This document shows positions 537-51,758 of a DNA stretch of 64,000 nt, in pieces (position 1 is the first letter of the stretch; every line of letters starts with the position of its first letter). Origin of the DNA: Stentor roeselii (Eukaryota > Ciliophora > Heterotrichea > Heterotrichida > Stentoridae); assembly GCA_006503475.1 (NCBI GenBank), contig RSEH01000070.1, forward strand, positions 62,001-126,000. The letters run 5' to 3'. The notes under the pieces are model-generated. The model saw nothing but the letters and a program-made list of their open reading frames with translations, was not told where the DNA came from and did not search any database. Both the position numbers and the translations under genes were made by a program.

Positions 537-2438
537 ATGTCAGCCTTTAATAAAGCTTTTTCATCCTCGCAGCTCAGCAGTAGACTTGTGTTGGCCAAAG
601 GAATTAAAAAGAACCGTTCTTTTCAAAATATCAGCAGCCCGGACAGTCTTCCTAAAATCACTAATTTTTCGACTAGTCCTTCTGTGACTTCTACCCTTTT
701 GAACAGGGTGCAAAGAAGAAGGTCAGGGAATTCTGTTAATATCGACCCTAAACTCGCAGCAGAGGTCATCAAAAAGTACCTGCTGCCCATGTTTGAAAAT
801 TCTAGGATTTTCAGTGAAGATCTTCAAAGAAAACATCAGATGGGACTGGGTTTTCACTGTAAGGATTCTGGGAAAATTATGAAGGAAACGAATGTTTATT
901 GTGAACTTAAACTTAGTGAGAAACTTTCGAATGAACTTGAAAAAACGAACTGTTTACTTCAAACTGCTCAGCAAAGGGTTGATTTTTTTGAACAAGAAAA
1001 GTTTGAAATGCAGTCTGAAATCAGGTACTTGAAAGAAATAAATGAAACTTTAAATATCAACTATAACAGCTTCAGAGTTCAGTTAAACTCTTACTGTCAG
1101 AAGCTCCAGTCTTATGAAATGAAAATGTACATGATCCAGAAACAACTCGAGCATTATAAAGCACTTGATAAAGTAAATCAAGAAAAAATATCGAGTCTAT
1201 CACAGAACCTTCACAACGAGCGAAATCTTAACGATATCCGATTCAACCTTTGATTTTCTTTAACTTTTTCAAATAAAATTCGGTCAGAACTGGTTGCTTT
1301 CAGCCATTTGAACACCCTGAACATAATCGAGAACCAGATAATAAAAGACAAACTCGCCGCTTTAAACGACACTTTTTCCAATTTGATAGGAAAAAAAAGT
1401 GATTCTGAACAATCAGCTTATTTTTTTCATCTTTTTTGTGTTGCTGGAAAAACCCTTGAAAATGAGCTGAAAACAACTGAAAAAAATTACATTTCCACTG
1501 TTCTGATCAACGAAGAACTCAACAATCGGCTTGAAAATTTAACCAGTTCTAACACCCTGGTCATGAAAAACCAGGAAAAACTTCTAACACTTGCCCGGGA
1601 AAAAGTCCTGAACTACAAAAAAACCGTTGAAAGTCTCACACAAGACAGGGATAAATTCAAAACTCGCCTTGAAAGTCTTGAAAGTATTCACAAAAACATC
1701 AGTGAAGACTACGATAAACTTCGACTTAAGTTAAAACAAGCGAAATTTCGCGTTTTTAGTCAAGATTTAGAACAAATCTGCATCAACTGTCGCGAAATCT
1801 TTAAAGAAGATGAAAATTTTAACTGGTCTTGTAAAGTTCACACTTCGCAGTACTCGGAATTCTGGTGGTGTTGTGGAAAGGCTGAAAAAGAAGCTGTTGG
1901 GTGTAAAGTCTGCAAACATCAGTCAAGAGAAGGGGAAAAAGACAGAGAAAAAGAAGAAAAGACTGAAAAAAAACCTTTTTGTTCTGTATTTTTCATCTAG
2001 AGCTGTAAAAAAACAGGACATCATCCTGCTGACTGCCCAAAAGACCCTAACGGCAGGTCAAGTATTGAATATCTTGAAGAAATTCAAAGACTTGAAAGGA
2101 TTTCAAAGCAGAAACCTTGGAAGTTGCTGAGAAAGGACAAAACGTTAGACTTTGAAAAAAGCCATGCAAGTTTACATCAGAAGGTTAAGGATATTGTTAG
2201 TGACTCTGACTCTGCTGACTTTTTTGATGACTTTGAAGATCAGACAAATGAAAGATTTTTTGGTGATTTAATGGTACTCAAAGGAAATACGGTCTTTGAT
2301 GTGGAGGGGGTAAAATTTAGTCAGACTAGGCATAAAGTTGACCAGGAGGCATATTTTAGTCCAACTAATATGCATCAGATTAGAAAAACTCGGATTAAAA
2401 GGGCAAAGTCTAGAATTCAAACCAACCATAAATCATAA
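537..2438 (+). CDS. Coiled-coil protein with zinc-binding modules; one in-frame TGA and one 15-nt intron
   Basis: Not recognised as a named family. The first 715 nt encode a basic N-terminus and a long coiled coil, ending at an in-frame TGA (1251-1253). The same frame continues without stop for another 740 nt as coiled coil, then a zinc-binding-like block (CINC...C..H...WWCCGK...GC..C..H, about 1779-1925). A 15-nt intron at 1986-2000 removes a TAG; splicing creates a knuckle-like CSSCKKTGHHPADC. The tail is acidic then basic. No GT-AG intron of about 15 nt covers the TGA, so it may be readthrough, a base error, or a true stop. If it is a true stop, a second gene would have to begin at the first in-frame ATG, at 1563. 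I prefer one gene because frame, composition and coil continue. Confidence 0.55.
1986..2000 (+). other. 15-nt intron
   Basis: GTATTTTTCATCTAG, phase 0. It ends in the TAG that would otherwise stop the frame. Removal joins Cys-Ser to Ser-Cys and completes a C-x2-C...H...C zinc-knuckle-like motif. It has an A six bases from the 3' end, like most other introns in the window. Confidence 0.85.
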
Positions 2439-2536
2439 TCCTTACCTAGTATGTCTTATCTTAAAGCAGCCAACGCGTAATACCTCACATCTTTATCACT
2501 ATCCTTGCTCAACTCTTGCAAAACACTGCCTAATCC

Positions 2537-4194
2537 TTACTTTTTAAGCATAGAAATATCAGACTTCTTCGCTATTTCCTTCATAACTTTGCATAAAACA
2601 AGTCTAACATTAGCCACATTATCTTTCGCTGCAAAATAAATCATAGTAGACAACTGATCAACAGTTAAGTTGATCTTAGCCAAGCACTGAAGAATATTGA
2701 TTCGAATAATAGAGTTCTTTTGATGATAAACATCTTGAAGTTTCGGTAAAAGTTCAGCAGTAACCCATTCATCGCCTAAAACTTTAACAACTTCAGGCAA
2801 GGTATCAACTCCAGAAGTTCTAACTTCACTAATAGGGTCAAGCAAGAAGTTAAAGTAAATATCTTGCAAAGACCGAGTAAAAATCTCATCTCCAAGTACT
2901 TTGCAGATCTCAACACAAGCTCTTATCGCCGCTTCTCGCAGTCGCCATTGAGGAGAGTCCTTCGAAATGCTACTAAGAAGACTGACGACATTAGGAGAAA
3001 CCATATCAACGCCTATCGCAGTTACAAGTTTTCCAAGTCCTTGAATCATGCTGAGCTTCACTTCAACGTGTTCATCTGAAAGAAGCTGAAGGACTATTGG
3101 GACGAGTTTCGTACTTGCAAAGTCTTTTCCTAGAGAATTGCTCAGGTCGGGTAAGGCCATTGCGCAGTTTTTTTTCACTTTGGGAGGAAGAGAGTTGTCT
3201 GAAACAACTGACTCGATTGTCGGGAAGACCAGGGCTTGGACGCGGTCTCGTGAAATGAAGTGAAGAGTTGATTTTAATGAGTCTAAAGCTACTGTTTTCA
3301 CGTCGGCTTCGTTGTCACGAAGTAACTGGACAAAGGTTTGGATTAGGGAACTCTCGGTTATGTCTCGGCCTAAAGCTTCTGCTACTGATGGGAACTTTTG
3401 GGCGAAGTGGTAACGGACTTTCCAGCTCTTGTCGTCTCCAACTAGGAGGATCAGGGGAAGGGTGTGAAGCTTGTTTTCTTCTTTGCTTAGAAGCTTGGCT
3501 ACGTCGATTAAACTGTCGATGCATAGAGTACGCACTTGGTCTTGCTCGTCTTGAACTAGGTTTCTGAGGTCGTGGTTGAAATCAGAGACAAGATAAGGTT
3601 TTTCCAGTACCTTCGCAAATCTTCTCATTTCAATAACAGCAGCACGTCGAACCATCGGAGTTTCTTCATGACTGAGTTCAAGAAACCTACTTCTAAGTTT
3701 TTCTTTATTCCCTCCAGACCGTGGATAAGCCGAAGCAAACAAGGAACAAGCAGAGACCCTAGCAGAGAAGTTTTCAGCTGATGCAAGTTTCAGCACGATG
3801 GGTACAAAAAGCCCTGTGATTTCGCTGTCAGAAAGCGACTTCGATATCTCATTCAGCGTCTTTGTTGCTTGATCACGGACGACTGTCTCGTCCAAGCCCG
3901 CCAGAGTCTCTAATAATGAAAGCAAAGGTCCTGGAGAACTTTGAACGAAATGGTAAAGGTCGCCTAAAGACTCTGCCAGGGCAAATAAAACTTCTTCGCC
4001 TTCGGAAAGAATCAGGTCTAATTAGATTTACTTGAGAGGAAGGGCAAGAGATGGGATTTTACGTTGTCGCTTCCTAGAACTGTTGCTATTATACGAAGAC
4101 GGTGAATGCTGTTCACTTTTATGTAGGTCTCGTCGCTTGATAACTCTTCCTTTAGTAAGTCTAAGGCACTTAGGTCTGTGTGTGGATTACCCAT
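2537..4194 (-). CDS. PPP2R1A: Protein phosphatase 2A scaffold (A) subunit, HEAT repeats
   Basis: This is the PP2A structural subunit, the HEAT-repeat scaffold that carries the catalytic C and regulatory B subunits. It is 547 aa after splicing, close to the usual 580-590. Family landmarks are seen in order: HLLPFLS near residue 50, EEVLFALAESLG, ETVVRDQA, PMVRRAA, DKSWKVRYHFAQKF and VANVRLVLCKV near the C-terminus. The start ATG (4194-4192) and first 54 codons lie beyond a tiny intron at 4018-4031. Without splicing the conserved first HEAT repeat would be lost. It converges on the coiled-coil gene at 537-2438, with 98 nt between stops. The intron is 14 nt as written. Confidence 0.94.
4018..4031 (-). 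other. 14-nt intron (shorter than the usual 15)
   Basis: On the minus strand GTAAATCTAATTAG lies between codon 54 plus one base and the rest of the PP2A-A frame. Only removal of 14 nt keeps both sides in the conserved HEAT frame. TA followed by five bases at the 3' end matches the 15-nt introns, so the missing base lies between donor and branch region. A one-base deletion in the assembly is the main alternative. Confidence 0.75.
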
Positions 4195-5009: not shown

Positions 5010-6389
5010 TTACTTATTCAGAGACTTTTTAGCTAAGGTCTCCGAAAGCATCATTACATGGTCTTCGAATCTAGTGAACCGTTGCTCAAGTATCATTAAA
5101 GTTTTCGTCACCAAATCTAGTTGCCCGACGATTTTATCAATGGTCAAGTTGACCTCTTCAGGTACCTCTGAACTCCGACCTTTCTGCACTTTTTCAATAT
5201 TTTCCCTGATTTCTTCCACTACAACTTTCTGACTATTAACACTTTCCTTGAAAGGCTCAAGAACTTCAGACACTTCAATCATTTTTTTTCCTTCAGCAAG
5301 ATTTCGACTAACATTTTTTTTTTCAATTTCCTGATTTTTTTTGACAGGTTTTTCAAATTTCTCTACTTTTTCATTTTTTTCGAAGGATTTTTCAGTTCTT
5401 TCATTTTTTTTCCCTTTTTTCGGCATTTCGATTACGTTTTCTTCAGTTTTTTCCATGTTGCTTTTCCAGACCATGATACGTGAGTCAATCCCTCCGCTGA
5501 CGAAGAAGTCTCCAGTGCTTGAGAATTGAACAGCGGTGGCATTTCGCTCATGGCCGTAAAGAGTGTAAAGGATTTGCCCTTGTCTTAAGTCCCAGATCTT
5601 TAAAGTCGCATCTGCTGAGGCGCTGAGCAAAAACATTCCGCTTGGGTGGAAGCTGATTGAATTCACGCTGTCTGCGTGGGCGTCGTAGTGCTGAAGTAAT
5701 CTTGAACTACGCACGTCCCAGATCTTCACCTTCTGGTCTGTGCTTGCACCTGCTACGCAGGTGCCGTCTGGGTGGAACCTCACGCAATTCACACTTGCTC
5801 GGTGATCGGTAAATGTTGATATACAGTCTTTTTGACCTAGGTCCCAAAGTTTTACCATTTTGTCGTCACTTCCTGAAACCACCATTCTTCCGTCGGGACT
5901 GAACCTAGAAGACTTGATCCAATTAGTATGTCCAATCATCGAGAACTGAAACTTCCTATCAACAACAGTCCAAACCTTAAGACACTTATCATCCGAGCTA
6001 GTCAACAAAAGACTTCCATCACAAGAAAAATTGACACTTCTAACAGCAGCAGAGTGTCCCTTCAAGATATTATTTTTCCCTTCAGCTCCATTTTTCCAAA
6101 GTCTGACAGTATGATCCTTCGAAGCAGTGGCGATGAGGTCTCCACCAGGATTATAACACGCTTCAGTGATGCCTCCTTTATGTCCAGCGAACGTGTAAGG
6201 TCTTTTTTCCGGCTTAAAGTGCCAGACATGCACAGTGGAATCATCAGACGAAGACAAGACTTGCTTATGCTCCGGGTGAAAGTCGACAGAGGTAATAACT
6301 GCCCGATGTCCCTGGAAGGTTCTTTGCAGTTGAGGATCCGAAACACTGCACTTGAGTCTACCCGCTTCAAACTAACTAGGGCTTACCAT
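5010..6389 (-). CDS. POC1: POC1 centriolar WD40 protein
   Basis: Proteome-of-centriole protein 1, needed for centriole and basal-body stability. After splicing it is 454 aa. Seven WD40 repeats fill about residues 18-305, each ending in a W-D/W-K-like motif (VHVWH, VRLWK, LKVWT, VKLWD, VKIWD, LKIWD, IMVWK). A Lys/Glu-rich linker follows, then the C-terminal POC1 coil (QLDLVTKTLMILEQRF). The first coding exon is only the ATG (6389-6387). A 15-nt intron follows and exon 2 then reads F-E-A-G...DPQLQRTFQGHRAV, which restores the family's first repeat (compare the ...F-K-G-H-R-D start of animal POC1). The ATG is 9 nt after the stop of the DHHC gene on the same strand. Confidence 0.94.
6372..6386 (-). 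other. 15-nt intron directly after the start codon
   Basis: On the minus strand ATG is followed at once by GTAAGCCCTAGTTAG, then TTTGAAGCG in the POC1 frame. The intron contains an in-frame TAG, so the N-terminal extension is only reachable by splicing. Confidence 0.87.
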
Positions 6390-6398
6390 TTAAATTAT

Positions 6399-7303: not shown

Positions 7304-8113
7304 ATGAGACGTCAGGTCTTACTAACATCAGTAAAACCTCTTACAGAGGACTTTGCATCTAAAGTCCTTGAACTTGAAGCTGAACTAGTTCAAGCCTGGT
7401 CCCTCGACTCCCTGCGTTCTCTACTTGAGCTCTACTCAGTAATGACTACTTAGCAAGCCATAGAATTCTACGAGTCGAAAGGAGACACGAAGTATCATTT
7501 CTACCAAGAAAAAATGAGGTCTTTGTTAGAAAAGCAGAATTTCTATATTCCCAAAGCCTCAAGCACCCCAAACAGTCCCAAAAACAGAGACCTAAGCCAG
7601 CATCGCGAAGCAGACCAACGAATAAAACAACACGAATTCAATTGCAACCGTCTTTCTCAAGAAGTTTCCTCCAACCTCTTCAACCAAGACTCCCTTCTCT
7701 CACTAAAGCTAAAAAACCGTCAATCAAAGTTAACTTCTCCAAAGATAAAATCAACTAAAAACCATTTCAGAAAAAGCAAGACCTTCAGATTTGAAGCAGC
7801 AAGTTCCGAAAGCGAAAGCGAAAAGTCAGGAGGATTAGGCATCAGCAAGAACAACGAAGCCTTTGAAAGCAAATTGGAAGACGTCATAGAAAGATTCATC
7901 TTCGAAAAGATGCAGAAAAGCAAGGAGATCAGAAAAAAGTACAAAGAAGAAATCGGACAAGTTCTTAAAATGCAAGGAGGCTGTTTGATTGAGAAAATCG
8001 TCGAACAAATGCGAAGCGACATGAAAGAAGAGATAAGAAAAGCTGAAAAGCACCTGGAAAACGAGAGAAAAGCAGAAATCGTAAAAATCAAGCAATCTTT
8101 AAAGAAGTTTTAA
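7304..8113 (+). CDS. Hypothetical coiled-coil protein with a 15-nt intron
   Basis: Not recognised. Spliced product 264 aa. Exon 1 (7304-7438, 45 codons) encodes a helical start (VKPLTEDFASKVLELEAELV). A 15-nt intron follows at 7439-7453, and exon 2 continues the same helical domain (QAIEFYESKGDTKYHFYQEK). The middle is Ser/Lys-rich and probably disordered. The last 80 residues form a charged coiled coil. The start is supported by the A-rich context and by continuity across the intron. It is followed after 14 nt by the next gene on the same strand, also a coiled-coil protein, but a shared job is only a guess. Confidence 0.78.
7439..7453 (+). other. 15-nt intron
   Basis: GTAATGACTACTTAG, phase 0, between TCA and CAA. 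It contains the only in-frame stop between the ATG at 7304 and the end of the gene. Confidence 0.85.
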
Positions 8114-25938: not shown

Positions 25939-28900
25939 ATGAAGATTTTACTCTACTCGCTTCATGTTTATTGCCTGATACTCGAATATCGATTTGGGTT
26001 GGATTACAGTGACAAGTTTTACGATTATTCTGGCAATAGAAACTTTGGAATCAATGGAGATTCACTATATAATCAGAATGTGATAAAGACAGACAGAGGA
26101 ATTTACATAAAATATGATTATTCCAAGTTGTATTCGCAAAATAGTTTTACTTCACTTAACACTTATAGTGTTTCAATCTGGTTTATGGCTACAAACGATA
26201 ATCCTAGAATTTTTTGTTTTTTCAAGGAATTGAGTCATCGTTTAATTATAGGCAGAGATCCAGGAAAAAATTTTTTGTATTTTTACATAAAACAAATTTG
26301 GTATCCAAATGTTCAAATAAATATGACTGATAACACTTTCATGTTAAACAATTGGTATTCAATAATTCTTTCCTATTCAGATTCAACATACAGCTTATAT
26401 TTGAATAAACTTGGAATAAGCCCTTACACAACAACGAATTTTAATGTTAATTTATGTAAAGCATTCATTGGATCTCCAGACACAAAAAATACAAAAGCTG
26501 TAAAAGGCTTTGCATGGAATCTGATAATAAATGACATTTTAATAGATCCTCAACTACTATTATCAAGTACTGGTAAATGCCTATCTGAGTCATGTGGGTT
26601 ATATGAATTCTGCTTCAACGATCCACAATTAGGAAGCATTTGTTTCTTAAACAATACCAACCCAGACATAAACTCTTTCGGTGATTCTTGCTCTTCATGC
26701 ACCAGGACAACTAATTTTGACTGCCAAAATCCAAAAGCCATATGTTCTCACAATCCTCTCACTAACATCTGCACATCCTTCAACACCGAGTCAAACATCA
26801 CCGAAACCATAGACTGTAATTGCAGAAATAATTTCATTCTAACAAATCATCAATGTTGTAACAGAGACTGCAAAACCTGCGACAATAAAGGCTTTTGCTT
26901 GACTTGTAGAGACTCAAACATGATCCTTTTAAATGGAATTTGCAGCTGCTCAAAAGGATTCTATCAAGAACTTTCTCAAAATTCAATTCCTTTTTGCTCA
27001 TTATGTCAAGAAGGATGTGCAGATTGCATTAACCAGATTTCATGTAATCAGTGCATTGAAGGTTTTTTTTTAAATCAAACTGATAAAACCTGTCAATCTT
27101 GCCATTCATCTTGCTTGAGCTGTAATGAAACATCATGTCTTCAATGTCGGTCTTATTTTGCTGAACCAGAGTCAAACTATTGTAAATGCATGGAAAAGTT
27201 TTATAAAACTCTTGATGATCTCTGTGAACCTTGCCTTGATAGTTGCCTGGAATGTGAAGATTCTCAAAAATGCTTGAAATGTGTAGCTGATAACTCTCGA
27301 ATAGAAAATAATTCATGCGTTTGTGATGAAGGCTTTTGGAACTCATCAGCTTTGAATAATAAAGACTCTTGTCAACCTTGTAATAATACTTGCAAAACTT
27401 GTAATCAAGCTGATACATGTTTGGATTGTAAAGATGAAAGAGCTAGTCTTACTCCTGAATCGAAATGCAAAATATTTTGCACAGATGAGATTATAGAGGG
27501 TTGTTTTAGTTGTGGTTTTCTTTGTAAAAAATGCTTTGAGAATCAAACTTGTTATGAATGTGCTAAAAACTCAATAGTTGATGATGAAAATTGTACTTGT
27601 TTGGAAGGATTTTATGAAGTTAATGAAACATGTATTCAAAAATGGTTTTATTGGAATGTTTCTGTCAATAAAGTGAATAAAGTCTTGATCGAATTCACTG
27701 AAAATGTCAATATAACTTTACTAAAGCATAAATTGAAGTTAAGATTAGGATCAATTCAAGATACTTTTGATTTGATTGGTAAAAGCAAGAAGACTTTTTA
27801 CCTCATTTCGAAAAATGCTAAAAATCTTTCAAAGACAAAATTTTTCAAGCTTTCATTAAATAATGAAGAAATTCTCAGTGAAAATGGATCAAAGTTATTC
27901 AATTCATCATTCGAAGGATATTTCTATAAAATTAATATAACAAGTGGGTTAAATCCTACCTTAATAAAAACTGGGATTCAAGTGATGACATCCACAACTA
28001 TTGCAATCTCCATATCTTCGAATCCAACAGCATTTTTTGCTTTTCTTAATACAATTCAGTTTATTTGCTATATGCCTTTAAATTCAGTGGCCTATCCTCA
28101 AAGATTAAAGCACATAACAAATAGTTTTATCGATTACAATATTTTACCGAACTTTTTTGTCCTTCTCTTTACTCCTAACTCAACTTCTGTTCCTTATCCT
28201 GAAGCTTTGAATTTTGGAATTGAAACTTCAGTATTTTTGATCAATGTAGGCAAAAATTTCAATATTTTAATTGTTTTTATTTTCGCTATGGCTGTTTTAA
28301 AAATTTTAACTAAGATTTTTAAAGGAAAGCAAAATATTGAAATGCTTTGGGAAAAGAATAAATTTAACTTACTATTGGGATTTTTTATTAATATGTATCT
28401 CGAGCTTGGGTTTTATGGAGTTATTCAACTAAAATCAGTAAGAACTATTTAGAAAATCATTAATTTTGTTCCTGGTCTAATTAACTCGTGTTTAGCTGCA
28501 ATTACATGTGTGAGGATTATATAGTTACTTGTCTTTTTTTTACCTTTTATCCTTTTTTACACTCTTAGTAACTCAATTTCGGAAATAAATGAATATCAAT
28601 TTTTAAGACAGTATCAAATTTTAATCGGGGAACTCAAAAAAGATAATGGAAAAATGAACATTTATTTTTATCCATTAATGATTTTAAGAAAATTGTTCTT
28701 TATAATTTCTCAAGTTTTTCTGAATCACTTTCAAGGACTTCAAGTTATAATAAATGCAGCTTTTTCCTTATTATTTTTTATTTATTTGTGTAAGAAGAGA
28801 CCTTTCCAAGATAAAATATCGAACTTGAATTTTATTATTGGGGAAATTTGCATCTTGGTGGTGTTTTCCTTCACTTGTCCATTAGCTTTTAGCCAAAAGG

Positions 28901-29173: not shown

Positions 29174-29204
29174 AATCTAGATGATATTTAATATCATCTA
29201 GATT
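29174..29204. repeat. 15-bp perfect inverted repeat with 1-nt spacer
   Basis: AATCTAGATGATATT, one T, then its exact reverse complement, 83 nt after the receptor stop codon. The matching site in unit 2 (around 34459-34489) keeps the right arm but the left arm is damaged. Could form a hairpin in the 3' region of the transcript. Confidence 0.85.
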
Positions 29205-31226: not shown

Positions 31227-34200
31227 ATGAAGATTTTACTCTATTCACTTCGTGTATATTGCCTGATACTCGAATATCGATTTGGACTGGATTATAATGA
31301 CAAATTTTACGATTATTCTGGCAACAGAAACTTTGGAATCAATGGAGATTCACTATATAATCAGAATGTGGTAAAAACAGACAGAGGAATTTATATAAAA
31401 CATGATCATTCCAAGTTGTATTCGCAAAATAGCTTTACTTCACTTAACACTTATAGTGTTTCACTCTGGTATATGCCTACAAACGATAATCTTAGAATTT
31501 TTTGTTTTTTCAGTGAATGGAGTCATCGTTTAGTTATAGGCAGAGATCCAACAAAACATAATTTGTATGTATACATGAAACAACTTGGGCATAACGATGT
31601 TAAAATAGAAATCAGTGATAACACTTTTATGCTAAACAATTGGTATTTAATAATTCTTTCCTATTCAGATTCAACATACAGCCTTTATTTGAATAAACTT
31701 GGAAAAAGTCTTTACACACCAAGTATTTTTGATGTTAATTTATGTAAAGCATATATTGGATCTCCAGACACAGGAACTGCAAATGCTTTGATAGGCTTTG
31801 CATGGAATCTGATAATAAGTGAGATTTTAATAGATCCTCAACTACTATTATCAAGTACTGGTAAATGTCTATCAGAGTCATGTGGATTATATGAATTCTG
31901 CTTCAACGATCCACAATTAGGAAGCATTTGTATCTTAAACAATACCAACCCAGACATAAACTCTTTCGGTGATTCTTGTTCATCATGCACCAGGACAACT
32001 AATTTTGACTGTCAAATTCCAAAAGCCATATGTTCATACAATCCTCTCACTAACATCTGCACAGCTTTCAACACTGACTCAAACATCACCGAAACCATAG
32101 ACTGTAATTGCAGAAATAATTTCATTCTTACAAATCACCAATGTTGTTACAGAGACTGCAAAACCTGCGACAATAAAGGCTTTTGCTTGACTTGTAGAGA
32201 CTCAAACATGATCCTTTTAAATGGAATTTGCAGCTGCTCTAAAGGATTTTATCAAGAAATTTCTCAAAATTCTATTCCTTTTTGCTCATTATGTCAACAA
32301 GGATGCGCAGATTGCATTAACCAGATTTCATGTAATCAGTGCATTGAAGGTTTTTTTTTAAATCAAACTGATAAAACCTGTCAATCTTGCCATTCATCTT
32401 GCTTGAGTTGTAATGAAACATCATGTCTTCAATGTCGGTCTTATTTTGCTGAACCAGAGTCAAACTATTGTAAATGTCTGGAAAAGTTTTATAAAACTTT
32501 TGATGATCTTTGTGAACCTTGCCTTGATAGTTGCCTGGAATGTGAAGATTCTCAAAAATGCTTGAAATGTGTAGCTGATAACTCTCGAATAGAAAATAAT
32601 TCATGCGTTTGTGATGAAGGCTTTTGGAACTCATCAGCTTTGAATAATAAAGACTCTTGTCAACCTTGTAATAATACTTGCAAAACTTGTAATCAAGCTG
32701 ATACATGTTTGGATTGTAAAGATGAAAGAGCTAGTCTTACTCCTGAATCGAAATGCAAAATATTTTGCACAGATGAGATTATAGAGGGTTGTTTTAGTTG
32801 TGGTTTTCTTTGTAAAAAATGCTTTGAGAATCAAACTTGTTATGAATGTGCTAAAAACTCAATAGTTGATGATGAAAATTGTACTTGTTTGGAAGGATTT
32901 TATGAAGTTAATGAAACATGTATTCAAAAATGGTTTTATTGGAATGTTTCTGTCAATAAAGTGAATAAAGTCTTGATCGAATTCACTGAAAATGTCAATA
33001 TAACTTTACTAAAGCATAAATTGAAGTTAAGATTAGGATCAATTCAAGATACTTTTGATTTGATTGGTAAAAGCAAGAAGACTTTTTACCTCATTTCGAA
33101 AAATGCTAAAAATCTTTCAAAGACAAAATTTTTCAAGCTTTCATTAAATAATGAAGAAATTCTCAGTGAAAATGGATCAAAGTTATTCAATTCATCATTC
33201 GAAGGATATTTCTATAAAATTAATATAACAAGTGGGTTAAATCCTACCTTAATAAAAACTGGGATTCAAGTGATGACATCCACAACTATTGCAATCTCCA
33301 TATCTTCGAATCCAACAGCATTTTTTGCTTTTCTTAATACAATTCAGTTTATTTGCTATATGCCTTTAAATTCAGTGGCCTATCCTCAAAGATTAAAGCA
33401 CATAACAAATAGTTTTATCGATTACAATATTTTACCGAACTTTTTTGTCCTTCTCTTTACTCCTAACTCAACTTCTGTTCCTTATCCTGAAGCTTTGAAT
33501 TTTGGAATTGAAACTTCAGTATTTTTGATCAATGTAGGCAAAAATTTCAATATTTTAATTGTTTTTATTTTCGCTATGGCTGTTTTAAAAATTTTAACTA
33601 AGATTTTTAAAGGAAAGCAAAATATTGAAATGCTTTGGGAAAAGAATAAATTTAACTTACTATTGGGATTTTTTATTAATATGTATCTCGAGCTTGGGTT
33701 TTATGGAGTTATTCAACTAAAATCAGTAAGAACTATTTAGAAAATCATTAATTTTGTTCCTGGTCTAATTAACTCGTGTTTAGCTGCAATTACATGTGTG
33801 AGGATTATATAGTTACTTGTCTTTTTTTTACCTTTTATCCTTTTTTACACTCTTAGTAACTCAATTTCGGAAATAAATGAATATCAATTTTTAAGACAGT
33901 ATCAAATTTTAATCGGGGAACTCAAAAAAGATAATGGAAAAATGAACATTTATTTTTATCCATTAATGATTTTAAGAAAATTGTTCTTTATAATTTCTCA
34001 AGTTTTTCTGAATCACTTTCAAGGACTTCAAGTTATAATAAATGCAGCTTTTTCCTTATTATTTTTTATTTATTTGTGTAAGAAGAGACCTTTCCAAGAT
34101 AAAATATCGAACTTGAATTTTATTATTGGGGAAATTTGCATCTTGGTGGTGTTTTCCTTCACTTGTCCATTAGCTTTTAGCCAAAAGGATTCAATTGTCA

Positions 34201-34800: not shown

Positions 34801-35238
34801 ATGTACCAAGAAGTAGAAGAATGCATAATCTATCGTTCACCATTGATCACAAACCTGTCAATAACCCCCTGCGGCAACATTCTATTCGAATTTCATAAAG
34901 ACACACAAAGATTTTCAAATAAACTCTCCCATTTACCGTCAGCATCTAAACTCAATCATGAATTAAAAAGAAGCAAACGAAATCAAAAGAGAATGCCTAG
35001 CAAAGTGTAATAATCTTCAAATTCCCTACTCATGTCTAAGAAAAAGTTCATGTTTGAAAAGCTGAAAAATCAAGTTCTCACTCATTCAAAAACAAATCAA
35101 AGGCACTTTAGAGTCAAACTCTTTAAAGTGAAAATAGAAATCTCATCTCTTTCGAATTTTTCAAACAAGGCCAAAGAGGACCTCGAAAAAACTCAGCAAG
35201 ACAATCAAAGACTTAAAATTACTAAATTTCATTGTTAA
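34801..35238 (+). pseudogene. Decayed RING-finger gene in unit 2
   Basis: Homologous to 29512-30003 but further decayed. The start MYQEVEECIIY is kept, the central Cys-His block is damaged (PCGNILFEF), and a frame change destroys the last Cys pair. The frame stops at 35010. A second open piece (35032-35238) carries the remainder, MFEKLKNQ...EDLEKTQQDNQRL. Clearly non-functional as a RING protein. Confidence 0.7.
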
Positions 35239-41546: not shown

Positions 41547-44500
41547 ATGGAAAAAGCAGATGAGCTGAGTTTAATAGAAATAGATTCAATCCTATCAGAA
41601 GAACTGACACCAAACAGTCTAATCAAGCTCTTTTCCAAGATCAAAACAGTGATCGACAGCGGCAAACTTCAAAGTTCAGTTTATTCCAACAAAGACCTTT
41701 TAAAAGCTCTAAGGTTTTTCCTTTGTGACAAAGAAAGAGAGGTGCGAGTGGTGGCCTTAAGAGCAGTTCGTTATTTATCAGTCTCAGAAGCTGCACTGTT
41801 CGAAATCAAGACAGCAAAGTTGTTGCATTTTATAGTGAGGAGCTTTGAAACTGATGGAAAAAACAACGAAAGAATAGAAGCTTGTAAAATCATTAAAAAC
41901 TGGCTTGAAATGAGTCCATCGTCATTTCCTCAGCCTTTCATGTCTGCCTTGGTCAGTCTTGCAGAGACTGAAAATGAAGACGAGCTGAAGGACTTCGCAG
42001 TTGAAGCCATTCGAATCCTCAGCGTTTCGAATACTTCGCTCGTGGCATGGACAGGAGGTTTTAAAATCCTGATATCATCGATTTTAAACCCGAAAGTAGA
42101 AGAAGCCATCATAAAAAACACTGTTTTAACACTGTTGTACTTGTTAAACTCGAAAGAAACTCGACAATTTCTAAAAAAAGAAAAAGAACTTGCTAGGATT
42201 TTCTCGATTTTCACTGATATCGAGCAAGACTTGAAAGATTCTGAACTTGATGCGATGATCTTGTTGGCTAAAAAGGTTTTGATTATGATGTCTCGCAGTT
42301 GGGTGGGTCTTATCTTTCTAGCCTCTGGGGGACTGAAGCAGATTATTGATAACTTGTGCCTGCCGATTAAGCCGAAGCTTAAAGAAGCGATTTTAGAGGT
42401 TATTGAAGAAATTATTAATATTCGTGTGGACTCTTCACAGAAGTCAAGAGGTTTGCTTAAGAACTATTTGGCGATGTTGTTAAAAGCTTTGATTCATTGC
42501 AATCTTTATACTGCTCTTACAAACCTGGCTATTGAAAAATCGGATCCTAAAGCACAGAGAGCGAGAAAGCTCTTGAAACAAGTTATTACTACTGCAAGTG
42601 ACTTGCTACCTGATGCTCCTCAGTTCTCGCTTATGTTAGACTCGCAGAAATCGGTCATCACTGCGCAGCTTGTGGCGGAAATTGACTCTTCGACTCGTTT
42701 GAAGGGGAGCTCTGGATTGCTGGGAATGTTGAGCAGGTCTTGTGAATTATTAAGCAAAGAACCCAATTCCCATATCGAGTCGCAAAACACAGTCACAATC
42801 GGCATATATAAAAGTTACGGAATCAACAGTGTAGATGACTCTGTTTTTAATAATTTGATCAAAGAGAGCAAGGTGTTAAAAGATGCTAATGCCTGGGACT
42901 GGGACATAATATATCAACTGATGGCTGGACCCATATCAACTCCTCAAAGGTTCATGCAAGCCCATCGTCAGAGGTTTTTAAGATGTCTATTAACCTATTT
43001 CGTACCATCCCGGGCATTGTTCAGTACTTTAAGGTGGCATCCAAATGATTTTTTGAAGGCCCAGGTCGGTATGTTGCTAATCGGCCTTCTTATGACACAG
43101 ACAGAAGGAATTCAACTTCTAACAACAACAATTCATGAAGGTTTCTTTGTGATGCGAAAAAGTTTCATGGGTGAAATTGTTGACGCGATTGATGAAGAAA
43201 TTTCAGTTCTTGAGGGAAACAAGTCAAGTACTTCAAGACTTTTTACTCCAGAAAGAATGAAAGTTTCAATGGTGAGAGAGTATTTGAAGTGGATGGGAAT
43301 GTTGACTTATTATAAGTCCGGTCTGGCACTTTTGACTTCTACTGATTTAGGGAATAAATTGATGAAACTTTCAAAGGTAGAACATCTGTCGACTGTTATT
43401 ATTCCTTACTTGAACTATCAAGAAGGGTTTTCTAAAGATTATCTGTCGTTCGCGTTACAGTCTGATGACTTTTTAGTTAGGAAAAATGCGATGGAACATG
43501 TTCGACTTGTGTTTCGAGCAGGGATTTATGAGTTGAACTGGGCGGTCAGAGAAATTGTGAATCAACTTTACTCACCTGATGAGTCTACGGTTAAGTGCGC
43601 TTTAAGTGTGATTGAGGAGCTCTGCACTAATAATGCCAATCTGAAAGCTTTTATTGAAACTGGACCTCAAACCTTAACAGGTCTGGGCGAAGAAGGTGCA
43701 AAATGTTTAATCTCATTTTTAAGTTCCTCAACAGGTATCGGTTACCTATCCCAGTTAGACTTCATATCAAAAGAGTTACAAAAATGGAAAAAAACTGGTA
43801 ACCTAGACTACGTGATGAAAGTAGAGCAACAAAGCGAGATCGCCTTGACATCCCAAAGACAAGTATACGCTCTCGACATCCACACTCCATTCGCCAACAG
43901 TTACTCTGACCGCGTTGAGCCGATGTGGTTACGAAAGCTTCCATTCACCATCGTCGTATACGTCTCTGGACACAAAAAAACCCTTTCATTAAACACCTGG
44001 ATTGAGATTCTCGACGAAGTCTTCATCGTCAGTCGTATCCCTGATTTAGAAATATTCGAAAACGACACAATTTCCACATGTCTTCAACTAGGCATCTCTA
44101 ACATCGACTCGAAAGGACTGGAAACTCTTGACTCCAACTGGGTCAAATGCCTTCCTCAGGACCGGGAAGCCACTGAGGAGGACCATATGGAAAAATTCGG
44201 AGTAATTTTCAGGTTTTCCCGTAAGTCCAGTCATTTATTCCTCACAGAAGTCGCTTATCGCGTTCAGATCCTGCCGAAAGCAACACCTTCCATAAAGTTC
44301 CCAAAACATCTCTATGGAGAACTGGTCCAGACCAAGGCAGGACTGAAAAAATTGCAAGAGTCGAAACATGTGGAAGAATTAACTGAAATGCTTAAAGGTG
44401 AAGCTTCAGTCATTCAAAAAAGAGTCGCTTTGTGGGCTTTAGGACATGTCGGGACCAGTGACCGTGGAATTGCTTATTTACAGAAACTTGCTGTTGTCGC

Positions 44501-45020
44501 TTCTATTGTTGAAACTGCGGAAAAAAGCCCAGTTCTTAGCCTTCGGGGCACCGCTTTTCAAAGTTTGTGTCTTTTGGCTTCGACTAATGCTGGAAGAAAA
44601 GAATTGCTTAGGTTTGGGTGGGTCTGTTCACAGGCGAACATTGCCATGCCTGCTTCTAGTGAAAGGATCTTTTGGCTTGATAATGATGATAGTTTCGCAA
44701 ATTTTTCGAGTAAATGTCTTAATGCTGAAGAAATCATTGAAAGTATTCCACTTACTCATGATGAACAAGAAGTCTTGTTTAATATTGTTGGACTTGGAAA
44801 TGTTGTCAGGAGAGGAGAAGCTGAAGTTTATTTAAAGGCGAAAAGAGCGGCTATGCCTTCTGCTTTTGTAGGGATTAATTTGTTTCATGCTGTCATGAGC
44901 AACTTGAGCATGTTTACTTTTAAACTTGGGACTAGGAAAATTGTTCATAAGTTGATGGAAAGGATTTATAGTTTGCAGAAATCTGTGCATGAGTTAGATA
45001 ACTTTGCTCATATCACTTAA
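41547..45020 (+). CDS. RICTOR: RICTOR-like TORC2 subunit
   Basis: 1157 aa of HEAT/ARM repeats. RICTOR defines TOR complex 2, controlling AGC kinases and the cortex. Supporting blocks: the N-terminal domain with KEREVRVVALRAVRYLSV (about 70) and LLYLLNSKETRQFL (about 200); the middle block FLRCLLTYFVPSRALFSTL (about 475-520); and the C-terminal block RVALWALGHVGTSDRGIAYL (about 958) followed by LSLRGTAFQSLCLLA. These match Pianissimo/STE16/RICTOR in order and spacing. It is shorter than animal RICTOR (about 1700), lacking the long disordered C-terminal region, as in many protists. Confidence 0.9.
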   Translation: MEKADELSLIEIDSILSEELTPNSLIKLFSKIKTVIDSGKLQSSVYSNKDLLKALRFFLCDKEREVRVVALRAVRYLSVSEAALFEIKTAKLLHFIVRSFETDGKNNERIEACKIIKNWLEMSPSSFPQPFMSALVSLAETENEDELKDFAVEAIRILSVSNTSLVAWTGGFKILISSILNPKVEEAIIKNTVLTLLYLLNSKETRQFLKKEKELARIFSIFTDIEQDLKDSELDAMILLAKKVLIMMSRSWVGLIFLASGGLKQIIDNLCLPIKPKLKEAILEVIEEIINIRVDSSQKSRGLLKNYLAMLLKALIHCNLYTALTNLAIEKSDPKAQRARKLLKQVITTASDLLPDAPQFSLMLDSQKSVITAQLVAEIDSSTRLKGSSGLLGMLSRSCELLSKEPNSHIESQNTVTIGIYKSYGINSVDDSVFNNLIKESKVLKDANAWDWDIIYQLMAGPISTPQRFMQAHRQRFLRCLLTYFVPSRALFSTLRWHPNDFLKAQVGMLLIGLLMTQTEGIQLLTTTIHEGFFVMRKSFMGEIVDAIDEEISVLEGNKSSTSRLFTPERMKVSMVREYLKWMGMLTYYKSGLALLTSTDLGNKLMKLSKVEHLSTVIIPYLNYQEGFSKDYLSFALQSDDFLVRKNAMEHVRLVFRAGIYELNWAVREIVNQLYSPDESTVKCALSVIEELCTNNANLKAFIETGPQTLTGLGEEGAKCLISFLSSSTGIGYLSQLDFISKELQKWKKTGNLDYVMKVEQQSEIALTSQRQVYALDIHTPFANSYSDRVEPMWLRKLPFTIVVYVSGHKKTLSLNTWIEILDEVFIVSRIPDLEIFENDTISTCLQLGISNIDSKGLETLDSNWVKCLPQDREATEEDHMEKFGVIFRFSRKSSHLFLTEVAYRVQILPKATPSIKFPKHLYGELVQTKAGLKKLQESKHVEELTEMLKGEASVIQKRVALWALGHVGTSDRGIAYLQKLAVVASIVETAEKSPVLSLRGTAFQSLCLLASTNAGRKELLRFGWVCSQANIAMPASSERIFWLDNDDSFANFSSKCLNAEEIIESIPLTHDEQEVLFNIVGLGNVVRRGEAEVYLKAKRAAMPSAFVGINLFHAVMSNLSMFTFKLGTRKIVHKLMERIYSLQKSVHELDNFAHIT

Positions 45021-45041: not shown

Positions 45042-46208
45042 CTACTTCTTGCTGTAGAGCTTTAGAAGTTGTGGGTCGATTTTTAACATTTGGTTGAATT
45101 TCGTCTTGTATTTTGAGGTTGGGGCGGGTGGGTAGTCTTCTCTAACAGAATGAGCAGTCAACCTTGCACCTTGATCAACATCTCCAAACTCGGCCTTAAA
45201 CTGTTCATAAGGCGTTAAGCAGACACTTCTCCCTATTCCTCCATTGGTCCTTTCATAATAATCACACAAAAAGTGTTGTTGCGGTCCTAAAACCGATCCA
45301 CTTCTACACAATCGACACCAAGCAATAGCCTCAAGTCCAGTGAATCCAAACTCTTTAATAACAAAGCAGCCTACAAGAGTGGCAGTCCTTCCAAGTCCCG
45401 CCTGACAATGAACAGCGATAACCTCTTCCCTACTAGCGACCTGCAAGAACCTATTGACGACATCATTACTAGGAACAGATCCATCTTCAAAGAACATCTC
45501 ATAATGATTGAGACCATTCTTCTTAAACCTGCTGGCTTCATAAGTTGGATTATTAAGCCGAATAACTGCTTTTACCCCCAAAGACTTGAAAAGTTCAGAA
45601 TATTGCTCAGCGGTCAGTCCTCTTTGGTTATTTCTCGTTATTGGGTTGGAGAATGCCAGGAACTTGTTTGGGACAAGCCAGTTGAACCCGCCGTTGTCAG
45701 GATTTGAGTATTTTTCGTAGTCTTGTAAGTTGAAAGAGTCCAAATCGAACCAATTCAGACTTTTACCTCGGGAAAGAGCCTGAAGACAGTCGAAGATGTG
45801 CAACTCGAATGAACTTCCTTCAGTGCTTGCGTCTCGGAAGAATAGAAATCGCGGCAAACGATCGAATAGCGACCAGGCTTCTTCTGCTGTTCGGTTTAAA
45901 CGGAGAATTTGATAAGCGCATATCAAAAAGGCGGAATTCGCTCGTTTTGAGGGCTGCATGCAGGTGAAGTGAAGGATTGAGTGCTTTTGCAAGGATGGCC
46001 TTTGAAGAAGCTCGTCGAGTAATGAACAGTATTTGAATATCATTGATAGGTCTAAAGGACCGAAGTCTGTGTTGTATGGAAGGTATACTAAGGACTATGG
46101 AGAAATTACCTCGTCAATACAGAAAGCATGAGTTTTCGGTTTGTTAGGAATTTGACGGTCGCAGCACCATAATAGTCTCTTGTTGATTACCTCGACTGTT
46201 TGATTCAT
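45042..46208 (-). CDS. CDC14: CDC14-family dual-specificity phosphatase
   Basis: 383 aa after splicing; ends in TAG. CDC14 reverses CDK phosphorylation at mitotic exit and acts at centrosomes or basal bodies. The catalytic P-loop HCQAGLGRT is at about residues 261-269 (Cys near 262). The following IAWCRLCRSGSVLGPQQHFL is diagnostic of CDC14. The upstream regulatory half is present (KRANSAFLICAYQI, PRFLFFRDAS, FNWLVPNKFLAFSNP). The true start is at 46208; exon 1 has 33 codons (INKRLLWCCDRQIP) and a 15-nt intron (46095-46109) restores YNTDFGPLDLSMIFKYC. Confidence 0.95.
46095..46109 (-). other. 15-nt intron
   Basis: On the minus strand GTAATTTCTCCATAG, phase 0, between GAG and TCC of CDC14. 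It contains the in-frame TAG. This is the only intron here without A at the sixth base from the 3' end. Confidence 0.9.
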
Positions 46209-47486: not shown

Positions 47487-47487
47487 A

Positions 47488-48774
47488 TTAATGTTTATCT
47501 ACTAATAAAGAAACCCTATAAGCAAGGTAATGATAGAATGCTTGAGGATATTCTTTGATTTTTCCTAAAGCTTCAACTATAATTTTCCAGAGTTCAATCA
47601 TTTCAAAATTATTTGGACTTGTATTCATGAGCTTGTTATTCAAAATATAATTCACAGCCTTGGAACTAACATTAATAATATCTTTTAAACAGTCAATCAA
47701 AATCTCAATACTAACTTGTTTTGGATCACATTCCTGTAAATTTTCAAAAAGATACTGAATGCTATCATTCACCATCTTTTGCTTGTTTGGGTCCTGTTCT
47801 TTTTCGACTTCTTCTGATTTGCTTTCAGATTCATACCGCTCTTGACGATAATTTTGAATTGATTTATTAAGTCTTCCCTGATTATCTCTTAATGCATTCT
47901 GATAAGGATTTGAACTCAATTTATTTAACTTGAAAGGATTGTATGAAATTTCAGGACCTTGTTCAAAAATATTCTCAAAGTCTTGATTTTTTAACCCAAT
48001 TCCTTGTTTTATGATTTTATTATAAAATTCTCTGAATCTGAAGACTTGTTTCGGTGAAAAGTTTTGTCTATAGCGCAAAAGATTGACAATCACTTTATTA
48101 AAATCAATGTTAATCTCTTTTTCAATACAAAATGTTAAAAATTCCAGAAGTTTATTGAAAACAACAATACTTAAAATGTCACTCCAATTAATTTTTTTTT
48201 CAAAGACTATTTGACAGCCTTTTAATAATAAATTCGTCAATCTGAAGTAGTCATCACTTTGAGGACTATATGAAATGGCTTCCAATTCTCTTAAATCTAA
48301 GTAGAATAATGAAGATTCCAAAGAAAGTATTTTTTTAAGAGGATATGCGTGGATCGCGACAGTGATTAATTGATCACTTACAATAAATTTCTTATGATAT
48401 AGGCTAAAAAGAGCTTTGTAGTTTTGGATCAGTTCATTTTTGTAATGTTGAACTTCATCTAGAATCTCAAAAAGGATTTGACTTGAATGATTCATTTCAG
48501 TGATTTTAAGTGCTTGAGATACCTTGTCTCTTTCATTTGTTATTGGTACTGTTTTTAGCAAATACTTTAGAATCTTTAATAGAAAAATTGCCCTGTATGA
48601 TGAGTCGAGATCCCTGTTTTCGCTGAGACTTTTGATGAAATTTGGAGAGATTTTGTTGATTTTCTCGAGACTTCCTATTATGATCCCAAGGCTGATTTCA
48701 TTGTAATCTGAAGTATTTAGTTCAAAGTCAGTCAGGTCTTCATTTAGTAAGAACGTGTCAATGAAATGAAGCAT
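47488..48774 (-). CDS. Hypothetical helical protein, tandem paralogue A
   Basis: Not recognised. 428 aa, predicted mostly alpha-helical. It shares order and motifs with the next gene: a D-Y-x-E-I-x-x-G-I-I-I-G-x-L-x-K-I block near residue 25 and A-Y-P-L-x-x-I near 148. Both also have LxSIVxxxxxxEyLxF near 205 and a C-terminal helical domain after a Gln/Arg/Glu-rich linker. The layout (two helical domains and a charged linker) could suit a HEAT-like scaffold, but no function is supported. Confidence 0.72.
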   Translation of the reverse strand: MLHFIDTFLLNEDLTDFELNTSDYNEISLGIIIGSLEKINKISPNFIKSLSENRDLDSSYRAIFLLKILKYLLKTVPITNERDKVSQALKITEMNHSSQILFEILDEVQHYKNELIQNYKALFSLYHKKFIVSDQLITVAIHAYPLKKILSLESSLFYLDLRELEAISYSPQSDDYFRLTNLLLKGCQIVFEKKINWSDILSIVVFNKLLEFLTFCIEKEINIDFNKVIVNLLRYRQNFSPKQVFRFREFYNKIIKQGIGLKNQDFENIFEQGPEISYNPFKLNKLSSNPYQNALRDNQGRLNKSIQNYRQERYESESKSEEVEKEQDPNKQKMVNDSIQYLFENLQECDPKQVSIEILIDCLKDIINVSSKAVNYILNNKLMNTSPNNFEMIELWKIIVEALGKIKEYPQAFYHYLAYRVSLLVDKH

Positions 48775-48880: not shown

Positions 48881-50242
48881 CTAGTAATAATTTTGATTTT
48901 TCCTTATATAGCTCAGGTTATATTCAAGATGATCAAGATATTCTCTGTTAAAAATATCGATTTCCCTCAAAGCATTACAAACACTTGACCAAAGAATAAT
49001 ACTTTGAGTGGAATAATGCCTTTCATAATAAGATAATGATTCTAAAAATTCGTAAACAATAAACTGATCTTTTTCTACAAACGGAAACAAAAGATCACGT
49101 AAAACTGAAATATCAATATTTTCTCGAAATTTGTCCCTGATTCCAACAATGACATCTCTCAGTCCATTTTTAATATTTTCTTTTACTTGAAATTCCCTCC
49201 GATCACTAGATCTATAGTGTTGTCTACCCCGACCTCGTCTATTAAAAGAATTTTGTCTATAGTTTCTTTTGTCATTATTTTGATACTGTCTAAACTCATA
49301 CTGTCGTTCTCTTCCTTCACCTATTTCATGTTGAGAGTAGTCAAGTTCCGCTTCATAGCATCCTTCTCTTTGATACCCTTGGTTCCAATCATATTCTTCA
49401 GACTGGTAACTCTTCTGTTCGAAGTTTTTCCTCGGTCTTTCCTCATTTCCTTCATTTCTAAACTGAAACTTAACCGAGTAGTTAATTTCAAGATTTCTCA
49501 GCACTTCTTTAATTTTACTCGACTGGTTCATAGTGAAATGTCTGGAATAGCAGTCTAAAATCTTCTGAACATCAGAATACTCAAAATATTCCTTATTTCT
49601 AACTAAAAAACCTAAATATTCATAAAACTGTCGATAAGCTACAATACTTATAAGTTCCTTAGGTGTTAAGTTCATGTCAGAAATCACTGAAAACGCAGTT
49701 TGAATCAAATTCAGGTTTCGACTTGGTTCATCAAAATTTCCGTTCAAAATATACTCAAGTTCCTGAGGTTCATATATAAAAATATTATTCTTTAATCCCA
49801 TAATTTCAATCAAAGGATAGGCACTGATGATAACCTTTAAAATATTCGTATTTCCCAAGAACTTGTTTACAATTAAATCAAAAGCAGAGCAAAAATTCGA
49901 AGAAATATATTTTAAAAGTTGTCCAAACTCAGAAAAACTTGCTAAAAAATCAGTAGCTTCATCAAATTCATCTATTATAAAATTCTCAACATTTCTTTCC
50001 TTTTCACCAGATAAAGTTACTTTCTTTTCAATAATATTAAAAACTTTTCCAATTAGAATAATTTTAATATCTCTTCCAGCATCTTCATTATTTCTGAGAT
50101 TTCTTAAAAAGTTCTGAGAAAATTCTGTGATTTTGTCAAGATTTCCAATAATTATTCCAAAAGCGATTTCTGAATAGTCAGCATCATCAAGTACGAAGCC
50201 TTCGAATGACTCTTGTGCGATAAAGGAATCAACAAGGCTCAT
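48881..50242 (-). CDS. Hypothetical helical protein with Arg-rich linker, tandem paralogue B
   Basis: Not recognised. 453 aa from the ATG at 50242, chosen because MSLVDSFIAQE aligns with the start of paralogue A; an upstream ATG at 50281 would add 13 residues. N- and C-terminal helical domains match A. The linker (about 265-345) is rich in Arg, Tyr, Gln and Asn with RRGRGR, resembling RGG/RNA-binding regions; A has only a shorter acidic/basic linker there. An RNA-associated role is possible but only inferred. Ends in TAG. Confidence 0.72.
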   Translation of the reverse strand: MSLVDSFIAQESFEGFVLDDADYSEIAFGIIIGNLDKITEFSQNFLRNLRNNEDAGRDIKIILIGKVFNIIEKKVTLSGEKERNVENFIIDEFDEATDFLASFSEFGQLLKYISSNFCSAFDLIVNKFLGNTNILKVIISAYPLIEIMGLKNNIFIYEPQELEYILNGNFDEPSRNLNLIQTAFSVISDMNLTPKELISIVAYRQFYEYLGFLVRNKEYFEYSDVQKILDCYSRHFTMNQSSKIKEVLRNLEINYSVKFQFRNEGNEERPRKNFEQKSYQSEEYDWNQGYQREGCYEAELDYSQHEIGEGRERQYEFRQYQNNDKRNYRQNSFNRRGRGRQHYRSSDRREFQVKENIKNGLRDVIVGIRDKFRENIDISVLRDLLFPFVEKDQFIVYEFLESLSYYERHYSTQSIILWSSVCNALREIDIFNREYLDHLEYNLSYIRKNQNYY

Positions 50243-50300: not shown

Positions 50301-51527
50301 ATGTCTGAGTACATCGTGAAAGACAACGACTCACTGATCGGAATATCTTTAAAGTGCAATATAAACCTTTACTCCCTTCTCCGAATGAACAGCTTAAGTG
50401 AAGATTCTCTGATTTTTCCCGGAATGAAACTAAAACTCGCGCCATCTGCTGTAGAAGAGAAAAAAAAAGACTACATCTTACAACAAACTGCTACTTTTTG
50501 CACAGTTGAAGGTCAAATCGAAGGAAGTTTGACACTTTTTAAGAACCACCTTAAGTTTCTCCCTTCTTCTTTGAATAACCAGTCAACTTTAAGGTTTTCA
50601 AACGAGTCTTTAAAAGTGAATCCAGAGGACTTTCAAGTGACTTTGAATTATTTAGACATATTTGACGTACAGCTGCTTGATAATCAAGGATATCGTTCAC
50701 GTGAACATGTTTACATCGTGCAGATCCTCATTCGCTCTACAGGCAAAGAGCCTCGAAGTGAAAGAGCCTTAGCCCGAGTGTACTTCAAGGTACTTTCCAT
50801 TCAGGTATCAAGTAAAATCTGCGACGTCAACAAGAAAAACCAAGAAGCTCTTGACAAGTCTCATGAAATAATTGACAAACTAGCAGAACTCATTCTTAAC
50901 ACCCAGGAAGTCTCTGAAAACGCAACAAAAGTCCCTTTTCCTGAGTACCTCGAACACCCTGCAATAGAACAAGAAACACCTTTACAAGTTTCCAACTCGC
51001 AAATACTTGAAATTCATTCTGAAATCTTGAACACTCAAGAAACAAGTCAAATTTATGAACTACTTCCAGATGTGCTTAAGTTCTCATCATGTAAAATCAT
51101 GTATTCTAGTCAACAACATGGATTTTCACTTAGAACTCTTTTCAATCGATGTGAAGAGTCAGGACCTTTCATTATCCTCGTTGTTGATGCAGATCGTTAC
51201 AAGTTTGGAGCTTTTATTCCAATGTCTTTGAAGTGTTGCAACGAGTTTTATGGAGATGGGACTGTTTTTGTGTTTACCTTTAAGGAGAAGGAGAAAATTA
51301 GGGTGTTTCGGTCTAAGTGGACGAGTGAAAAACTGGTATCGACGTATTATGAAGGGATTATTGTTGGAAAAGGGTGAGGAGTATTTAGGAATAACCCGGC
51401 TTTTTGTATTGAGGCGGATTTACTTGCAGGGTTTAGCAAGGAAAGCTTGAGTTTCAGGAATCAGGTTCTGAGTAAAAATGAAAATTTCACTGTTTTGAAC
51501 ATAGAAATTTGGGGATTTTTTAATTAA
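50301..51527 (+). CDS. OXR1/NCOA7-like protein (LysM, GRAM-like, TLDc)
   Basis: 403 aa after splicing. The N-terminal LysM (YIVKDNDSLIGIS...FPGMKLKL, residues 4-48) is followed by a GRAM-like segment (about 58-160) and a C-terminal TLDc domain (about 235-403). This is the animal OXR1/NCOA7 order; TLDc proteins protect against oxidative stress and bind V-ATPase. The TLDc end is only complete when the 15-nt intron at 51374-51388 is removed. This gives GKGNNPAFCIEADLL and the terminal IEIWGFF, both hallmarks of TLDc. Without splicing the frame ends at a TGA inside the intron. The next start codon is 6 nt after its TAA. Confidence 0.94.
51374..51388 (+). other. 15-nt intron
   Basis: GTGAGGAGTATTTAG, phase 2 (GG|G). 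It removes the in-frame TGA and joins G-K-G to N-N-P-A-F-C in the TLDc domain. Confidence 0.92.
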
Positions 51528-51533
51528 TATAAT

Positions 51534-51758
51534 ATGAGTGGAAAAGTTGAAGATGAAGTACAGAAGATGGTTCATAAGGAGATTAAGAAGTAAGAGATAT
51601 GAAGTATTGATAGGATTTGCAATAAAATGTGTAGACTTTTGAATAATAGTGAAAGTTTGAATCATGCTGAAGAGAACTGCTTGGATCGATGTGTGATGAA
51701 GTTTTATCACTCTAGGAATTTGATGAATCGAATGACACAAGAAGGGTTATTAAAATAA
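51534..51758 (+). CDS. Small Tim chaperone (Tim9/Tim10-type)
   Basis: 69 aa after splicing. Small Tims escort hydrophobic precursors across the mitochondrial intermembrane space. The twin CX3C signature is intact: ICNKMC, 15 residues, then CLDRC, the same spacing as Tim9. Exon 1 (51534-51589) encodes MSGKVEDEVQKMVHKEIK plus two bases of an Asn codon; a 15-nt intron at 51590-51604 follows. The frame then runs to TAA at 51756-51758. The four cysteines should form two disulfides. Which small Tim it is cannot be told by eye. Confidence 0.9.
51590..51604 (+). other. 15-nt intron
   Basis: GTAAGAGATATGAAG, phase 2 (AA|T). It ends in AAG rather than TAG. Removal joins the N-terminal helix to the twin-CX3C core. 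Confidence 0.85.

Follow-up and report, generated by a model that had tools for sequence, protein, structure and literature searches.

Ten sites in a 64-kb window of contig RSEH01000070.1 (the whole stretch of DNA analyzed, to which all coordinates refer) were assigned, with a probability of about 90%, to the 15-nt class of U2-type introns known from heterotrich ciliates, the genome being of the macronuclear type and using UGA as a stop codon. All ten proved to be 15-mers that start with GT and end with AG on the coding strand (10/10); eight lie on the + strand, and those at 6372 and 46095 on the − strand. An A occupies position 10, that is, six bases from the 3′ end (−6), in 9/10 sites, the sole exception being the site at 46095 (GTAATTTCTCCATAG), which has a C there. 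The ten sites are not independent, because 28438/28510 and 33726/33798 are the same introns, identical in the two copies of a tandem duplication; eight distinct introns therefore remain, 7/8 of which have the A (p = 0.0015 with A at a background frequency of 0.307). Upon retention, an in-frame stop is met at 10/10 sites, and the junctions of 3/8 distinct introns fall within Pfam domains (DSPn/CDC14 at 46095, TLDc at 51374, and Tim10_DDP at 51590). For the other five distinct introns the support consists of frame and motif, to which a knuckle recognized by eye is added at 1986 and a needed start codon at 6372. The initial annotation, which had described ten 15-nt GT..AG introns with an A six bases from the 3′ end in nine of them, each removing a stop or restoring a domain, was thus confirmed on these points, domains being rejoined at the three junctions above.

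The three junctions within domains are as follows. The intron at 46095..46109 (−, phase 0, C at −6) lies in gene 45042-46208, which encodes a CDC14-like phosphatase of 383 aa. The DSPn domain (residues 6-142; Pfam) crosses the junction at 33/34, and the alignment of the spliced protein with human CDC14A runs through the junction ungapped (E 2.6e-86). The intron GTGAGGAGTATTTAG at 51374..51388 (+, phase 2, A at −6) interrupts gene 50301-51527, a LysM + TLDc protein of 403 aa, in which TLDc (residues 239-402) crosses the junction near residue 358. The intron GTAAGAGATATGAAG at 51590..51604 (+, phase 2, A at −6) lies in gene 51534-51758, which encodes a small-TIM (Tim10/DDP) protein of 69 aa; in the spliced protein the Tim10_DDP match (residues 10-64, E 4.7e-7; Pfam) crosses the junction, and weak matches to TIM8/10/13 were obtained in the PDB, the best with E 0.0015.

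The small nuclear RNAs (snRNAs) U1, U2, and U6 of this genome scored above the Rfam cut-off, and their contact motifs are canonical (ACUUACCUG in U1, GUAGUA in U2, and ACAGAGA in U6); the GTAAG of the introns matches the U1 5′ end. Therefore, early recognition looks ordinary, and it is the geometry that poses the special problem. The earlier remark that 15 nt leave almost no room for contacts of small nuclear ribonucleoproteins is fair as a statement of that problem, but the snRNAs themselves are canonical here. A special non-spliceosomal removal, 15 nt being too short for the spliceosome, would account for a length far under that of usual minimal introns, and the literature, as far as its accessible parts go, yielded no enzymatic proof of spliceosomal removal. 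Nevertheless, the GT..AG ends, the fixed A, the canonical U1, U2, and U6, and the retention of Slu7, Prp18, and Cwc25 in the genome make such a route highly improbable, and all five major snRNAs and most spliceosome proteins are reported for Stentor coeruleus (PMC9505925).

The length, orientation, and branch position of the class were evaluated on 245,447 bases of the genome, comprising the window and further stretches (L001-L021). For each length, GT..AG gaps were counted whose removal restores a coding frame flanked on either side by coding hexamers; this filter was adopted instead of an unfiltered rescue of open reading frames (ORFs), which was noisy and without a clear 15-nt peak in the window. 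At 15 nt, 22 frame-rescuing gaps were recovered, compared with 6 to 16 at each of the other lengths from 12 to 30 (mean 10.6). An A at −6 was present in 19/22 rescues at 15 nt vs. 52/191 at other lengths (Fisher p 8.8e-8), and in 12/14 rescues of 15 nt outside the window. In the same rescue test no 15-nt peak was seen for the reverse complement CT..AC (8 vs. 9.8), for TA..TA (32 vs. 39.1), or for GC..AG, AT..AC, GT..GT, AG..AG, GT..AA, and GA..AG. Since the 15-nt peak is found with GT..AG only and not with the reverse complement, the signal is tied to the strand of the RNA.

Further, a motif search was carried out over the 44.4-Mb assembly. The 15-nt motif GTAAG-N4-A-NN-TAG occurred in 1051 copies, compared with 162 for its 16-nt and 174 for its 17-nt form, giving an excess over the neighboring lengths of ~880 genome-wide. 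The 15-nt motif with a non-A at −6 was found in 447 copies vs. ~379 expected at the A share measured locally, 0.307 (123/401), so that ~93% of the genome-wide excess has the A. Support for introns with a fixed, branch-like A thus comes from the window, from the sampled stretches of the genome, and from the motif counts over the assembly.

These tests also bear on the two remaining alternatives. That short GT..AG strings at ORF ends were merely picked by a reader seeking them gains something from the noise of ORF rescue, in which looser coding filters gave similar counts at other lengths. However, the coding-filtered peak at 15 nt only and with GT..AG only, the A in the rescues outside the window, the genome-wide excess, and the three junctions within conserved domains render such an accident scarcely credible; chance appears refuted for the intron class as judged from these sequence tests, and single cases lacking homology (7439 and a further candidate at 2526) could still fail. 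DNA-level elements, i.e., unexcised internal eliminated sequences or small insertions, draw on the excision of short gene segments by ciliates, with <30 bp reported as possible in Paramecium (PMC9942806), yet elements of this kind have no fixed relation to the coding strand, CT..AC and TA..TA gave no 15-nt peak, and GTAAG fits the U1 5′ end, which leaves this explanation with next to no credit.

Several observations weigh against the assignment of the sites to a spliceosomal 15-nt class and were set beside the evidence above. The intron at 46095 does not have the A at −6. A control pattern read backwards gave counts (612, 751, and 788; also 1574) that exceed those of the 16- and 17-nt motifs; it was set aside in favor of the neighboring lengths because the control word differs in composition. 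The 16-nt class of Stentor and Blepharisma was not visible with the stringent motif (162 copies vs. 174 at 17 nt), where ~49 additional 16-nt introns of the stringent form would be expected at Stentor's ratio. The rescue test sees stop-holding introns only and is thus phase-biased and blind to open introns; the 245 kb tested also served to train its coding model, and tandem copies account for a few of the 22 rescues. As to the stops themselves, they are supplied by the final TAG in phase 0, by GTAA or GTGA in phase 2, and by other stops, twice a TAA at the branch A, in phase 1. No claim can be made that the splice signals themselves provide the stop codon in each phase, because introns without a stop escape the search. 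As a separate observation, a plausible 16-nt intron, GTTAGAAACTATTTAG, with A at −6, was noticed at 9046-9061 (−) of stretch L007.

With the A at −6 as the branch point, 5 nt would separate it from the 3′ splice site. Natural distances in yeast are reported to be no shorter than 10 nt, and distances down to 7 nt are used without Prp18; Prp18 and Slu7 are reportedly dispensable there at short distances. A conserved loop of Prp18 is described as imposing the minimum distance in yeast (PMC10711555), and in a study of Arabidopsis this loop is called the best-conserved region of Prp18 (PMC5873924).

Slu7 and Prp18 are listed as not found by BLAST in Stentor coeruleus (PMC9505925). In contrast, both were detected here by a profile search of the assembly, so that outright loss, which the Stentor entries suggested, was rejected. 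Prp18 gave a single weak match (E 2.1e-4), an ORF (L023) in which a PRP4-like domain (E 6.2e-9) precedes a Prp18 domain that covers profile positions 29-85 of 143 only. In a comparison with a provisional human Prp18 sequence, the last 23 residues of the ORF resembled the end of helix 5 (0/5000 shuffles as good), the stretch before the loop resembled the end of helix 4 (9/5000), and the whole tail was likewise matched by 0/5000 shuffles. The segment between these flanks showed no similarity (2128/5000) and comprises ~21 residues vs. ~38 in that human sequence. Loop motifs were sought and found in no frame of L023, and the profile search, run on an assembly of unstated completeness, yielded no second Prp18 that has a loop. 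As far as these alignments indicate, Prp18 seems to have lost its spacing loop while keeping both flanks. Three results weaken the case for such a loss: yeast Prp18 compared poorly with L023 (helix-5 tail 243/5000, helix-4 end 2105/5000, and whole tail 1288/5000), a PDB search with the L023 piece returned no Prp18 chain for the C-terminal domain, and human PRPF18 was matched in the PDB through its N-terminal PRP4-like part only (E 0.016).

Slu7 gave a single match (E 1.5e-34; L022 on contig C310), the ORF of which ends at two consecutive stops at profile position ~199 of 253, i.e., ~54 positions early. A hidden intron at the Slu7 3′ end was considered and rejected: among GT..AG removals of 13-20 nt close to the stop, those of 16 and 19 nt produced a longer frame, but neither had the 15-nt motif, and no Slu7-like sequence was recognized by eye in either. 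Cwc25, the N-terminus of which reads MGLAFLNKKSWH, aligned with human CWC25 from residue 6 on (E 7.6e-23) and is without the glycine plug, while human CWC25 has Gly2-Gly3-Gly4; S. coeruleus Cwc25 is reported to be likewise without Gly2-Gly3-Gly4 (PMC9505925).

On these grounds a splicing geometry may be proposed. U6 would pair with the 5′ splice site, and U2 with the U-rich sequence that precedes A10, so that the two pairings stand back to back within the catalytic core. In line with the model put forward for Stentor (PMC9505925), the lariat would have a 10-nt loop and a 5-nt tail. A trimmed second-step machinery would allow the 5-nt spacing between branch point and 3′ splice site: Prp18 would be without the loop that sets the minimum spacing in yeast, Slu7 would be shortened, and Cwc25 would be without the glycine plug, which sits by the branch helix. 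The apparent loss of the Prp18 loop, the absence of the Cwc25 plug, and the short Slu7 may thus explain the spacing. More generally, heterotrich spliceosomes may have shed protein elements that confine the space around the branch helix and fix how far away the 3′ splice site lies, the Prp18 loop foremost. It is a tentative and rather doubtful extension of this proposal that the active site was thereby opened for docking a 3′ splice site 5 nt from the branch A, with a 10-nt lariat, and that intron length became frozen at 15 nt because the stripped active site would accept little else. Loss of the Prp18 loop may be a cause or merely a relaxed constraint, the latter because short distances make the loop dispensable. 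No publication was found that links Prp18 loop loss to short heterotrich introns, PMC12862383, PMC10711555, and PMC5873924 being among those consulted and most subscription journals lying outside the coverage. To our knowledge, 15-nt introns are the shortest spliceosomal introns known.

The remaining introns of the window are all in phase 0 with A at −6. The intron GTATTTTTCATCTAG at 1986..2000 (+) lies in gene 1563-2438, which encodes a coiled-coil protein of 286 aa; it splits a CX2CX4HX4C knuckle that is completed by splicing, as seen by eye and with no Pfam match at the knuckle. The intron GTAAGCCCTAGTTAG at 6372..6386 (−) immediately follows the start codon of gene 5010-6389, so that the upstream exon contributes the start codon alone. 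The product is a WD40 protein of 454 aa, which we take to be POC1-like, and none of its WD40 matches in Pfam spans the junction. The intron GTAATGACTACTTAG at 7439..7453 (+) belongs to gene 7304-8113, the 264-aa product of which had no Pfam match at E 0.01. Gene 25939-29091, encoding a Cys-rich membrane protein of 1040 aa, holds the introns GTAAGAACTATTTAG at 28438..28452 (+) and GTGAGGATTATATAG at 28510..28524 (+), with a 57-nt exon between them; the Pfam scan of this gene covered exon 1. Their identical copies lie at 33726..33740 (+) and 33798..33812 (+) in the tandem duplicate, gene 31227-34379. The relative protein positions of the introns were 0.50 for 1986, 0.00 for 6372, 0.17 for 7439, 0.80 for 28438, 0.82 for 28510, 0.09 for 46095, 0.89 for 51374, and 0.26 for 51590; the earlier statement that places all but one near the ends of genes or in small ones is therefore loose, with an unclear end bias and eight distinct positions spread from 0.00 to 0.89.

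Two further candidates were evaluated. The sequence GTAAGGATTAGGCAG at 2526..2540 (−, phase 2, A at −6) is a coding-filtered frame rescue without homology support that was absent from the initial annotation; its removal would lengthen the protein of 2537-3655 by ~22 codons. A 16-nt candidate at 47499-47514 (−), which joins two adjoining ORFs and is without the motif, was not accepted. The ORFs 47488-48774 and 48881-50242 (−) adjoin one another, encode 428 and 453 aa with similar N-termini, and had no Pfam match at E 1e-4.

The duplication of the Cys-rich multi-pass protein gene has a spacing of ~5.3 kb and comprises 25567-29672 vs. 30856-34959 (94.7% identity) as well as 29700-30581 vs. 34957-35846 (84.9% identity); both introns are preserved letter for letter in both copies. 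The window also carries a chitin-synthase-like ORF of 836 aa (22217-24727, −), an ORF at 41547-45020 whose 1157-aa product is RICTOR-like and contains four RICTOR domains, and a 51-bp tandem array (61200-61494; 5.8 copies, 96% matches) within an intact SAC3/GANP-like ORF (60937-63849).

Compared with known ciliate introns, those of the window fit the heterotrich 15-nt class by their sequence features and are a further case of a known phenomenon. In S. coeruleus, 92.81% of 8806 annotated introns are reported to be 15 nt and 7.19% 16 nt, and 8005 of the introns have the branch A at position 10 (PMC9505925). The two genomes have in common the 15-nt length, GT..AG ends, A at position 10, AT-richness, UGA as stop, canonical U1/U2/U6, a Cwc25 without the glycine plug, and mostly 1-2 introns per gene (PMC9505925). 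However, the commonest S. coeruleus intron, GUAAUUUUUAUAUAG, has 127 copies among 8173 there and 4 in the 44.4 Mb here, so that the genome is not that of S. coeruleus; the AT share here (0.68 in 20 listed introns) is below the 75.6% of that species (PMC9505925), and its 16-nt class with the same motif was not detected in this genome. Blepharisma stoltei likewise has a compact macronuclear genome (41 Mb vs. 44.4 Mb here), with introns mainly of 15 and 16 bp and UGA read as tryptophan (PMC9942806). The long sense ORFs here contain 0 TGA vs. 23, 12, 11, 8, and 8 TGG; therefore, the Blepharisma code is not used. Together with the near absence of the commonest S. coeruleus intron, this points to what is probably another heterotrich. 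Heterotrich introns in general are given as ~95% 15 bp and the remainder 16 bp, and Loxodes magnus, a karyorelict of the sister group, has very short spliceosomal introns too, but longer ones, with a mode of 17 bp, a mean of 19.3, and a negligible share <16 bp (PMC11441545). The 15-nt introns are thus not new in themselves, because they are in print for heterotrichs (PMC9505925, PMC9942806, PMC11441545). A second genome with the same architecture, seemingly without the 16-nt class, separates general from Stentor-specific features, and what is new relative to the published class is the apparent loss of the Prp18 loop alongside the 5-nt spacing. If the absence of the loop holds, the question becomes directly testable, since the distance and the loop that sets it in yeast (PMC10711555) would both be gone.

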